From NCBI RefSeq assembly GCF_031624495.1, contig NZ_JAMQOP010000005.1, positions 124,001-188,000 of the forward strand: a stretch of 64,000 nt of DNA. The letters run 5' to 3'. This stretch comes from Halogeometricum sp. S1BR25-6. Lineage in GTDB: Archaea > Halobacteriota > Halobacteria > Halobacteriales > Haloferacaceae. Under the pieces are notes generated by a model, which was given only the letters and a program-made list of their open reading frames with translations, was not told the origin of the DNA and made no database searches. A program made the translations under genes and the position numbers. Of this stretch, positions 11,353-15,159 are shown in pieces (the stretch's first letter is position 1; every line of letters begins with the position of its first letter).

Positions 11353-11529
11353 AGACGTACGTTCTGATTGAGTAATGTGCTCTACTCCGTAGTCCTATAC
11401 GTTAGCTGACGTTGACTGCTATAGATGGGGCTTGACAACGCATATAATGGATTTTTGATGATTTCACCGAGGTTCGAACGGGAGTAATTGTACAAGCGTT
11501 AAGTTCCGGTGCGAAAACAACTAGAGGCT

Positions 11530-11994
11530 ATGGCATACGAAAATCTTGACAAACAGCTCATCAACGCGCTTATTGGGAATGGACGAGCGAGTCTGCGAAG
11601 TCTCTCTGAAGAGCTAGATGTCTCAGTGACGACGGTCTCGAATCACATTAGCGATCTCGAAGATGAGGGGGTAATTAGCGGGTATACGCCGATTCTGAAC
11701 TATGACGAGCTTGGGTACGAAGTGACCGCCGTGCTGCAGCTCAAAGTGGAGGGGCAAGCGCTCTCGGATGTGGTGACACGACTACAGGGACACAAACAGA
11801 TAACAACCGTCTACGAAACGACGGGTGAATTCGACATTATCGGTATTGGCTCATTTCGTGACACAGAGGACGTTAACCAGACAATCAAGCAGCTACTGAA
11901 CGATGCGACTGTCCGGCAGTCCTCAACTGCGATCATACTAAACAAACCAGTAGAGAATCAGCAATTCGAGCTTGACGTTGAGTCATCGAACTGA
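11530..11994 (+). CDS. Lrp/AsnC-family transcriptional regulator
   Basis: A 154-aa protein. The N-terminal HTH (about 1-55, RASLRSLSEELDVSVTTVSN) is followed by an AsnC ligand-binding/RAM domain (about 65-145) with the typical VYETTGEFDIIGIGSF strand. Such proteins bind DNA as octamers and respond to amino acids or act globally. ATG 11530 is preferred, with GTG 11509 an alternative. It stands alone upstream of the partition region, so its targets are not obvious. Confidence 0.88.
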   Translation: MAYENLDKQLINALIGNGRASLRSLSEELDVSVTTVSNHISDLEDEGVISGYTPILNYDELGYEVTAVLQLKVEGQALSDVVTRLQGHKQITTVYETTGEFDIIGIGSFRDTEDVNQTIKQLLNDATVRQSSTAIILNKPVENQQFELDVESSN

Positions 11995-12333: not shown

Positions 12334-12795
12334 CTACTCAAGTTCCAGTTCTTCGCGCAGCTGATCGCTCTCTAACCCTGCTTTGAACACTGCATTGAAG
12401 AACTCTTTATTCTTTGTCAGTTCATCGCCGTGAACCCGGAAATACTCTGAGTCCAGATCCTTGAATGTCGCCACCATATCCCGGTAGATATCCTCGTACA
12501 GATAGACGTTCACGTTATGAAGGTCGCGGACAGCGAACCCTTTCCGCTCAGCATCAATACTCATTTGCCGTACTGTGTTCCCTTCTGCTGTATCTGACGT
12601 ATCCTCTTTGTCTGTGATATCTTCCGTATCTGCTTTTTCTTCAATATCTGATTCATCTTGAGTATCTTTTATATCGTATGCGTCTTCTGTATCTGATGTA
12701 TCTGAATTGTCTTCGGCTTCTGAGCTCGCACCCGTAGAACGCACCTCGCTCATATTCCACGTCTCCTGCTTCCGATCCTCTAAATCGTCACTCAT
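12334..12795 (-). CDS. partition partner of ParA (ParB-like/adaptor), 153 aa
   Basis: Its start overlaps the parA stop codon as TAATG, so translation is coupled and it is the expected second partition protein. The first 75 residues are a disordered acidic repeat of SDT/EDT/KDT units. The C-terminal 75 residues form a helical domain (NVNVYLYEDIYRDMVATF onward) resembling small haloarchaeal ParA partners. The repeat tract is encoded by DNA full of TATCTGA motifs, the same motif found upstream of parA. The partition site may therefore extend into this gene. It has no classical ParB N-terminal domain. Confidence 0.7.
   Translation of the reverse strand: MSDDLEDRKQETWNMSEVRSTGASSEAEDNSDTSDTEDAYDIKDTQDESDIEEKADTEDITDKEDTSDTAEGNTVRQMSIDAERKGFAVRDLHNVNVYLYEDIYRDMVATFKDLDSEYFRVHGDELTKNKEFFNAVFKAGLESDQLREELELE
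12588..12712. repeat. TATCTGA iterons inside the parA-partner gene
   Basis: On the plus strand this stretch contains many TATCTGA/TATCT/TGTCTG units about every 8-15 bases, for example TATCTGACGTATC and TATCTGATGTATCTGA. The same units occur at 13590-13690 upstream of parA. They translate as the acidic SDT/EDT repeat of the partner protein. Confidence 0.65.
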
Positions 12796-13589
12796 TACGC
12801 CTTCACCTCTTCAGCAGCTAACTCACGGGCAATACTCAGGTACGATTCACGGGCGTCATCCACCTTTGCCGGATCATCATGCTGGAAAATCGAGACACCG
12901 TTGTTCCACGCTCGACGAATCGCTACACGCTCTGGAATCTGGAACACTGGGTACGGAGCATCGTTGAAGAATTCCAGCATCTCCTTCGTATCGTTATTCG
13001 GCGTACCCTCGACCGAGTTCACTACGATACCTCGGACACGTATCTGATCTATCTGACCAGGGAAACTGGACTCTAAGTAGCTGATTTCCTCGTTCATTTT
13101 CTCAATCGCACGGATACTACGGCGAGTCGGTTCAACTGGAATCAGCAGATTTTCAGCTGCTAGCAAAGCGTTGTCGAGAATCTGCGAGAGATCAGGCGGA
13201 CAGTCGATAATGATGAAGTCGTAATCCGTGTCAAGCTCGTCTAAAGCGATCTTCAACCGCATCTCGCTGTTTGCCACTTGGGTTAGCAGCATATCTTTCA
13301 ATGCATCCATCGACTTGTTCGCTGGGATAATGTCAAACTCCTCGTGGTGCTGGATGATATCGTTGATTTCGCTGGTTCTCGACGGGTCCACCATCACCTG
13401 ATGCAGTGACGGAATTTTCTGACTGTACAAGTCACGGAACCCGACGCCTTCAGTTGCCGTGCCTTGTGGATCAGCGTCGACGAGCAGTACTTTGTGCCCT
13501 AACTCGTTCAACGCCCCGGACAAATTGATACTGGTCGTTGTCTTCCCCACGCCTCCAGCCTGATTGCTGATGGCCAATATCTGAGTCAT
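12795..13589 (-). CDS. parA: ParA-family partition ATPase
   Basis: A 264-aa Soj/ParA protein. The Walker A region reads NQAGGVGKTTT (K16). A switch/Walker A' region contains LLVDADPQGT, and Walker B contains FIIIDCPPDL. It drives segregation of the replicon by ATP-dependent DNA binding with the co-encoded partner. The signature lysine that normally opens the deviant Walker motif (KGGVGKT) is Ala here. It is the first gene of a two-gene operon coupled by TAATG. TATCTGA repeats just upstream (13590-13690) are likely the promoter/operator and centromere. Its closeness to the orc1/cdc6 gene fits a replication-partition module. Confidence 0.92.
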   Translation of the reverse strand: MTQILAISNQAGGVGKTTTSINLSGALNELGHKVLLVDADPQGTATEGVGFRDLYSQKIPSLHQVMVDPSRTSEINDIIQHHEEFDIIPANKSMDALKDMLLTQVANSEMRLKIALDELDTDYDFIIIDCPPDLSQILDNALLAAENLLIPVEPTRRSIRAIEKMNEEISYLESSFPGQIDQIRVRGIVVNSVEGTPNNDTKEMLEFFNDAPYPVFQIPERVAIRRAWNNGVSIFQHDDPAKVDDARESYLSIARELAAEEVKA

Positions 13590-13690
13590 GTGTCTTCTGT
13601 ATCTGACGTATCTTATTACGGTCGCATAAATGTATGTCAGACATCTACTGTACCAACTGTATCTGACCTATCTTCTGTATCTGATATAGG
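13590..13690. repeat. TATCTGA iterons upstream of parA (candidate centromere/operator)
   Basis: Several copies of TATCTGA or its shorter form TATCT, including TATCTGACGTATCTT and TATCTGACCTATCTT, occupy the parA upstream region. The parA promoter must lie here. Repeats at this position usually bind the partition adaptor for both autoregulation and segregation. Confidence 0.65.
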
Positions 13691-13932: not shown

Positions 13933-15159
13933 CTACGTTAGTCCTTCTCGGTCTGCCGCAGATTCTAACATCTCCGGGATATCCTCTAAACGACTGATCT
14001 CACTCAACACAGCCAGCACCGAACCTAAATCCACATTCAGCTCGTATTCATAGTAGCTACCGCCGTGGAATCCATCATTCCGTTCAGCAACTGTTAGAAA
14101 ACCATGCAGCGACAACTCGCTCAGATGATCGCGGATACGACGCTCACCAAGAGCATCAGCAGAAATACGGTCAGCATAGTTCTGGTACCGTTCGTAGATT
14201 TCTTGCGTCCGAACAGGAGCAACCTCCGTAATCTCGAAAGCCGAAACACTGCACAGCACCAGATGCCCCTGAGTCGTCAACTCCCGCATCCCATCCTCTA
14301 ACTGATCACGCTCTAACTCCTTCTGAGCGCTGCGAATATGCTTCTCCTCAACCGTCGAAGCCTCATTAGATCGAGCCAATTCCCCTGCCTTATGCAGAAG
14401 CCGAAGACCTTGACGAGCACTCCCAGAGTCTTGAGCAGAAAAAGCCGCCGCCAACGGAATCACCTCATCATTCAAGACCCCGTCGTGGAAAGCTTTCTCG
14501 GCTCTATCACCGAGGATCGACGTTAACTCATTCGCATCGTACGGCGGGAAATGGATTTCCTCTTCACATAATGTGTCCTTCACCTTCGGAGAGAGCTGGT
14601 CGCGAAACGTGAAGTCATTCGAGATACCGATGATACCGGGCCAGACATCGTCGACATAACCATTGCTCTCAGCGCGCGGCAGCTCATACAGGATATCATC
14701 GTTCCCTCCAATGTTGTCGATCTCGTCGAGGACGATTAAGACAGTTCCACCAAGTTCGTCCAGTTCATCGTAAAGCATGTTGAACACGTCCTGTTGCGGA
14801 TAGCCGGTGGTGGAGACACGGCTGTCCGGTCCTCGCAACTGGTTCAACAGGTTGACTGCGACCTGGTAGCTGCTGGAGATGTTGTTACAGGGTTGCTTGA
14901 TCACAGTCAAGTCAATACCGTATTCTCCGGCGTCTTCCTGCAGATGATCGAGCAAATAGTTTGTCGCAACCGTCTTCCCGACACCGGTTTTCCCGTAGAG
15001 AAAAATATTCTTAGGCGGTGCCCCGTTGATCACCGGTTGCAACGCATTCCGGTACTTTTTGAGTTCGTTATCTCGCTCTTGGATCTGCTCCGGTTGGTAG
15101 TTCTCACGTAAGGGATACTCGTCCGAGAAGATGTTCTCGTCCGGAGTAAACATCGCCAT
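13933..15159 (-). CDS. Orc1/Cdc6-type replication initiator (copy 1)
   Basis: A 408-aa AAA+ initiator with Walker A GKTGVGKT (56-63) and Walker B VLIVLDEID (140-148). Sensor motifs and a C-terminal winged helix follow (about 300-390). These proteins bind origin recognition boxes and open DNA for replication. It reads away from a repeat-containing, AT-rich region (15160-15561), which is the likely origin. An MFTPDE start context at the N-terminus is typical of plasmid-type haloarchaeal Orc proteins. The third initiator at 55.6 kb is a close relative lacking its N-terminus. Confidence 0.94.
   Translation of the reverse strand: MAMFTPDENIFSDEYPLRENYQPEQIQERDNELKKYRNALQPVINGAPPKNIFLYGKTGVGKTVATNYLLDHLQEDAGEYGIDLTVIKQPCNNISSSYQVAVNLLNQLRGPDSRVSTTGYPQQDVFNMLYDELDELGGTVLIVLDEIDNIGGNDDILYELPRAESNGYVDDVWPGIIGISNDFTFRDQLSPKVKDTLCEEEIHFPPYDANELTSILGDRAEKAFHDGVLNDEVIPLAAAFSAQDSGSARQGLRLLHKAGELARSNEASTVEEKHIRSAQKELERDQLEDGMRELTTQGHLVLCSVSAFEITEVAPVRTQEIYERYQNYADRISADALGERRIRDHLSELSLHGFLTVAERNDGFHGGSYYEYELNVDLGSVLAVLSEISRLEDIPEMLESAADREGLT

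Follow-up and report, generated by a model that had tools for sequence, protein, structure and literature searches.

The 64-kb window of Halogeometricum sp. S1BR25-6 analysed here (the whole stretch of DNA, to which all coordinates refer) is part of contig C5 (353 kb) of a nine-contig, 4.5-Mb haloarchaeal genome. It probably carries a ParA-type partition operon in which a 9-bp iteron array, acting as centromere and operator, lies around the promoter and also inside the gene of the centromere-binding partner of ParA. The repeats upstream of parA recur in the partner gene, the two tracts co-diverge across loci, the codon choice in the partner gene goes beyond what the peptide requires, the noncoding tract has a 9-bp periodicity, and one word can be read in two frames. 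The features of the locus are the following.

12334..12795 (-), partner gene, 153 amino acids, start codon overlapping the parA stop
12337..12549 (-), conserved C-terminal domain of the partner, predicted to comprise an extended, strand-like segment followed by a long helix and a further helix
12582..12723 (-), intragenic 9-bp iteron tract, corresponding to the predicted disordered S/E-D-T tail
12724..12795 (-), conserved head at the N-terminus of the partner (residues 1 to about 24); relatives begin with similar short Arg-containing heads
12795..13589 (-), parA, Walker-type ATPase, 264 amino acids, no extra N-terminal DNA-binding domain
13041..13056 (-), tandem iteron pair within parA (GTCAGATAGATCAGATAC)
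13591..13614 (-), iteron cluster between the parA start and the promoter-like element
13625..13642 (-), promoter-like element, GTCTGAC then TTTATG
13660..13684 (-), iteron cluster beyond the promoter-like element, with three units, each 9 bp from the next
13933..15159 (-), orc1/cdc6 replication initiator gene beside the par operon; context, outside the iteron system

Iterons upstream of parA and in the partner gene

The heptamer TATCTGA occurs 13 times in the 64 kb, compared to 4.8 expected copies, and none of 100 shuffles reached this number. Ten of the 13 copies fall within 12591-13684, where the spacing inside each cluster is 9 bp or a multiple of it, which bears out the initial annotation in its claim that the units upstream of parA return in the partner gene. 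The full repeat, TCAGATACN (TATCTGA on the plus strand), returns at 9-bp spacing in the partner gene and to either side of the promoter. The reverse-strand core AGATA is found in the partner gene at 12591, 12618, 12627, 12645, 12663, 12690 and 12699, with all steps multiples of 9, and upstream of parA at 13600/13609 and 13660/13669/13678; a further TATCTGA copy lies across parA codons 2-4 (13578-13584). The tandem form TATCTN4TATCT is present 21 times in the 4.5-Mb genome; six of these copies lie in this 1.1 kb and account for every copy on the 353-kb contig. Read on the gene strand, the unit in the partner gene is TCA GAT ACN, i.e. SDT, and the tail consists of SDT/EDT triplets. The acidic SDT/EDT repeat proposed at the outset is specific to the window's clade; at other loci, tracts arranged in this way code for SKT, SET, NDI, DKQ or EET-like repeats.

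In 14 of 30 divergent loci and in 49 of 109 related loci, the DNA upstream of parA contains the heptamer GTCTGAC and, a few nucleotides further on, a TTTATG/TTATA-like box, compared to an expectation of 0.012 per 150 nt from coding DNA, and its presence is independent of the local iteron motif. Judged by sequence, this combination appears to be a promoter-like element common to the whole family. Like the centromere repeats of type Ib systems, the upstream repeats are short and, by sequence, overlap this putative promoter, with 9-bp iterons on both sides of the conserved element. The tandem pair inside parA is intact in locus L021 (a Salinigranum relative) and degenerate in L035 (parA offset 533-550 in these two), and absent from L022, L030 and L128; it could be a further site or reflect a protein constraint.

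Co-divergence of the two tracts across loci

From 109 usable parA-partner loci, we chose 30 representatives with less than 75% ParA identity. The 9-nt tail units vary by locus, with motifs including TCAAAGACN and those listed here.

TCAGATACN: window, Salinigranum, Natronomonas
TCAAAGANN: Halorubrum, PhiCh1, L005
TCTAAGACN: L017
AGGAANNNA: Haladaptatus, L003
CGAACGAAA-like: L011 group, Haloferax lucentense
GAAACGTTA: L107
CCCGNTAAA: L101
ATCAAYGAC: L110
CACAGAACN: Halobacterium salinarum pHSAL2

At each of the listed loci, the same word is also found in the noncoding DNA upstream of its own parA, in either orientation; the orientation of the array is fixed inside the gene and free upstream. 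Tail 8-mers were found upstream in 4.3% of cases for own pairs and in 0.9% for swapped pairs, and no such excess in own pairs was seen in the C-terminal domain, parA or downstream DNA. With a tolerant ungapped match, the 30 loci scored 15.5 for own pairs and 10.4 for swapped pairs (standard deviation of the null 0.40; controls near the null), corresponding to p=5e-5, which is the floor of the 20,000 permutations. The noncoding upstream DNA matches itself at lags 9 and 18 only, among lags 4-19 tested, with 0.316 at lag 9 compared to 0.256 in shuffled DNA (standard deviation 0.007).

The upstream iterons of two loci, L045 and L050, share the reading frame of parA and may encode an N-terminal extension (MTETTETAETIE... 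and MSQTTETGETIET..., respectively), in which case both arrays would be coding. Since the upstream iterons of these loci are possibly coding, the tests were repeated on DNA strictly before any possible parA start, and the result held: own pairs scored 13.3, swapped pairs 10.3 and recoded pairs 11.0 (standard deviation 0.28). In the window, there is no parA start further upstream and the matching upstream tract is noncoding. On pHSAL2 (L153, 1990-2030), the upstream motif CACAGAACG also returns, in a different frame, at the very 3' terminus of the partner gene.

In the home genome, parA-partner operons of this kind lie on four contigs (C5, C7, C6 and C4), and there is a fifth, weaker match. The C5, C7 and C6 loci have clearly distinct repeats: they match their own upstream tracts with scores of 20, 17 and 19, respectively, and score 9-12 against one another. 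The C4 locus matches itself weakly, and against the C6 tract its tail reaches 17; C4 aside, the pattern is as expected for centromeres that need to be told apart. Contig C5 also has a second, weaker parA-partner pair (L140, C5:338943-339134) besides the one in the window.

Codon choice beyond the encoded peptide

For the recoding analysis, every peptide was kept and codons were drawn from the locus's own usage, in 1000 recodings. The observed mean match was 15.47, compared to 11.63 after recoding (standard deviation 0.30, maximum 12.67), and none of the 1000 recodings reached the observed value. We rely on this pooled test rather than on the per-locus tests, in which 15 of 30 loci had p<=0.05 individually, uncorrected for 30 loci. 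Within single genes, one word was found in two frames: ATCAAYGAC in L110 yields NDI and STT, and CACAGAAC on pHSAL2 yields SQND and ATER. In the L011 cluster of 36 loci, conserved tail residues keep the same codon with a probability of 0.77, compared to 0.59-0.61 elsewhere, and third-position identity is 0.70 in the tail, compared to 0.55-0.61, despite a lower amino-acid identity in the tail; in several columns the amino acid varies (GAA, AAA, GGA, GTA) while the third base is constantly A.

Several observations weigh against this interpretation. The other 15 of the 30 representative loci have no individually significant match, and in some of these the match may have been lost, the arrays may lie further upstream, or the starts may be miscalled. 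Third-position conservation is clear only in the L011 cluster, the other clusters being uninformative position by position because their tails align poorly; in the window's own small clade, where the tails also align poorly, no such effect is visible, with 0.47 in the tail compared to 0.47-0.49 in the C-terminal domain and parA. The tail units of the window are also looser than its upstream tract, four being exact TATCTGA and the others variants. Finally, recent copying between the tracts could yield part of the match without selection; such copying and selection for binding can act together, and at the level of sequence the two are not fully separable.

The initial annotation had proposed that one tract serves as both centromere-like site and protein code. 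Taken together, the four comparative tests, i.e. co-divergence, recoding, two frames and third positions, give good support to the double use of the DNA, as far as sequence comparison can provide it. The centromere half of that proposal follows by analogy from the partition literature and is probable.

ParA and its partner

ParA was identified by a match to AAA_31 (E=2e-44), the deviant Walker A motif NQAGGVGKTT and matches to ParA/Soj in the PDB. It is of the short form (264 amino acids), with the ATPase domain starting at residue 3 and no N-terminal helix-turn-helix domain. An overlapping gene downstream of parA is seen in nearly all relatives.

The partner has no match in Pfam, but matches phrog_26668, a family of unknown function from a library of viruses of bacteria and archaea, as do all 50 members of the partner family tested; one member of the partner family is carried by the PhiCh1 provirus. 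The family was found with a profile of the C-terminal domain, while searches with the single protein and of viral contigs gave few or no relatives. With this profile, relatives were found in 184 of 392 Halobacteriales genomes searched, and a search with the L011 protein listed relatives on 65 plasmids. At nearly all loci, the partner begins with a short conserved head, continues as a hydrophilic tail of low complexity, some tens of residues long, and ends in the conserved C-terminal domain.

In AlphaFold2 models, the predicted local distance difference test score (pLDDT) is below 50 across most of residues 19-88, so that the tail is predicted to be disordered, and averages 86 in the C-terminal domain, which has a strand-like segment and two main helices. 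This predicted architecture is compatible with a ribbon-helix-helix dimer, although it is not proof of one, and the domain is presumed to be a DNA-binding dimerisation domain. Searches for a ribbon-helix-helix relationship (Pfam, NCBIfam, PDB sequences, hhalign and fold searches with two AlphaFold2 models) gave nothing decisive: hhalign to ribbon-helix-helix was weak (P=0.014), and there was neither a Pfam match to this fold nor a clear fold match in the PDB. The idea that the tail is an untranslated spacer before a later start was rejected, as the head is conserved and the frame open in the loci; moreover, the first 15 codons of the C-terminal domain lack a start codon in L011, L045, L105 and L110.

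Proposed mechanism and alternative explanations

The small ParA, the apparent translational coupling, the predicted flexible N-terminal region and the direct repeats flanking the promoter-like element all suggest a type Ib-like system. The short upstream repeats of type Ib systems are both centromere and operator, and the partner binds them, represses the operon and engages ParA (PMC5016525). By the same logic, we infer binding, repression, partition and incompatibility for the haloarchaeal operon. The partner would bind the iterons, probably through its C-terminal domain, and repress the operon, while its N-terminal head would link the DNA to ParA and act as the ParA-stimulating region. The intragenic array would add sites in the same operon and may permit bridging or looping across parA. 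As the linker formed by the tail is disordered and tolerant of almost any hydrophilic sequence, its coding DNA can hold more binding sites, and it may be the least harmful place for such an array within the protein. The linker peptide (SDT, SKT, SET, NDI and others) would then be largely a by-product of the repeat, read in whichever frame avoids stops, and the preference of halophiles for acidic, hydrophilic residues would make the SDT, SET or SKT frames acceptable. Arrays would be expected to diverge among replicons, as they do, if plasmids residing together need different centromeres. Whether, across a widespread haloarchaeal family, the centromere DNA motif dictates the linker peptide of the centromere-binding protein, each new centromere specificity rewriting the linker as a by-product, seems to us evenly balanced.

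Among the alternatives, there is some, rather small, chance that the intragenic array is a regulatory operator outside the centromere, which would act together with the promoter array by looping or by roadblock autorepression. The upstream iterons do flank the conserved promoter-like element, and such sites serve as operators in type Ib systems (PMC5016525), but the divergence of the motifs between co-resident replicons suits an incompatibility determinant; an operator could diverge too, and the two roles usually coincide. It is unlikely that the repeats are 9-bp minisatellites in neutral turnover, copied between the tracts by recombination into a tail that tolerates anything. The disorder and variability of the tail, the imperfect arrays and the different unit numbers in relatives would fit such a process; however, the two tracts co-diverge in many loci with 800 bp of parA between them, neither parA nor the C-terminal domain nor downstream DNA has a comparable excess, third codon positions are kept in 36 loci at ParA synonymous divergence, and the 9-bp spacing is maintained in noncoding DNA. 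We regard it as very unlikely that the repeats are replication-origin iterons of the adjacent Orc1/Cdc6: in the window, about 340 bp separate parA from the upstream orc1/cdc6, which is also found near the Haloferax lucentense locus, but arrays occur at parA-partner loci whose annotated stretches list no nearby orc gene (L022, L024/PhiCh1 and L025). Selection on an acidic-repeat peptide with biased codons, the DNA likeness being incidental, is hardly credible: S-, D-, E- and T-rich tails are generally known to be common in halophiles and tails of the same reading recur within clades, but the match is lost when the tail is recoded according to the codon usage of its locus, the matching upstream tract is noncoding, as in the window, and the same word gives other peptides in other frames.

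Relation to known systems

The putative partition operon with a matched intragenic array shares with the type Ib systems ParF/ParG of TP228, delta/omega of pSM19035 and ParA/ParB of pCXC100 the small ParA, the short upstream repeats and, as predicted, a partner with a flexible N-terminal region and a compact C-terminal domain; like the array described here, the centromere of pCXC100 consists of direct repeats only (PMC5016525). Pfam and PDB searches did not connect the sequence of the partner with ParG, omega or the pCXC100 ParB. The type Ib centromeres are described as lying upstream, whereas the haloarchaeal loci add a matched array in the coding sequence of the partner, where it spells the linker. 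Intragenic sites are also known from archaeal SegAB, in which SegB sites are mostly intragenic and some lie within segAB of Sulfolobus acidocaldarius (PMC12284271); these, however, are 13-bp palindromes of the TCTAGA type with a conserved motif, scattered over the chromosome, in contrast to direct 9-mers with a replicon-specific motif clustered at the locus. In the origin of phage lambda, the repeats bound by the O protein likewise lie inside the O gene itself (PMC5043065), but serve replication rather than partition and form a single array instead of a family with many motifs. Single parS sites in par genes, such as the one proposed for parA of Mycobacterium bovis BCG (PMC2346475), place a centromere site in coding sequence too, but this is one conserved 16-bp palindrome in place of an array of iterons that gives a protein its repeat. 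The nearest precedents of this type Ib-like variant are the origin in the lambda O gene and the intragenic SegB and parS sites. In the literature searched, of which the coverage is incomplete, no description of an upstream repeat tract matched by repeats within the partner gene was found.

Archaeal plasmid centromeres are almost unknown and were named an open question in a 2016 review (PMC5120986); matched arrays would provide a sequence rule for locating them, and the array motifs would predict compatibility among haloarchaeal replicons. The linker is also a natural case in which a DNA-site function appears to shape a disordered protein region. Downstream of the partner gene, the window contains a gene for an AsnC/Lrp-type regulator (11509-11994, plus strand), and an Lrp gene is also found near the par locus of Halorubrum BOL3-1.
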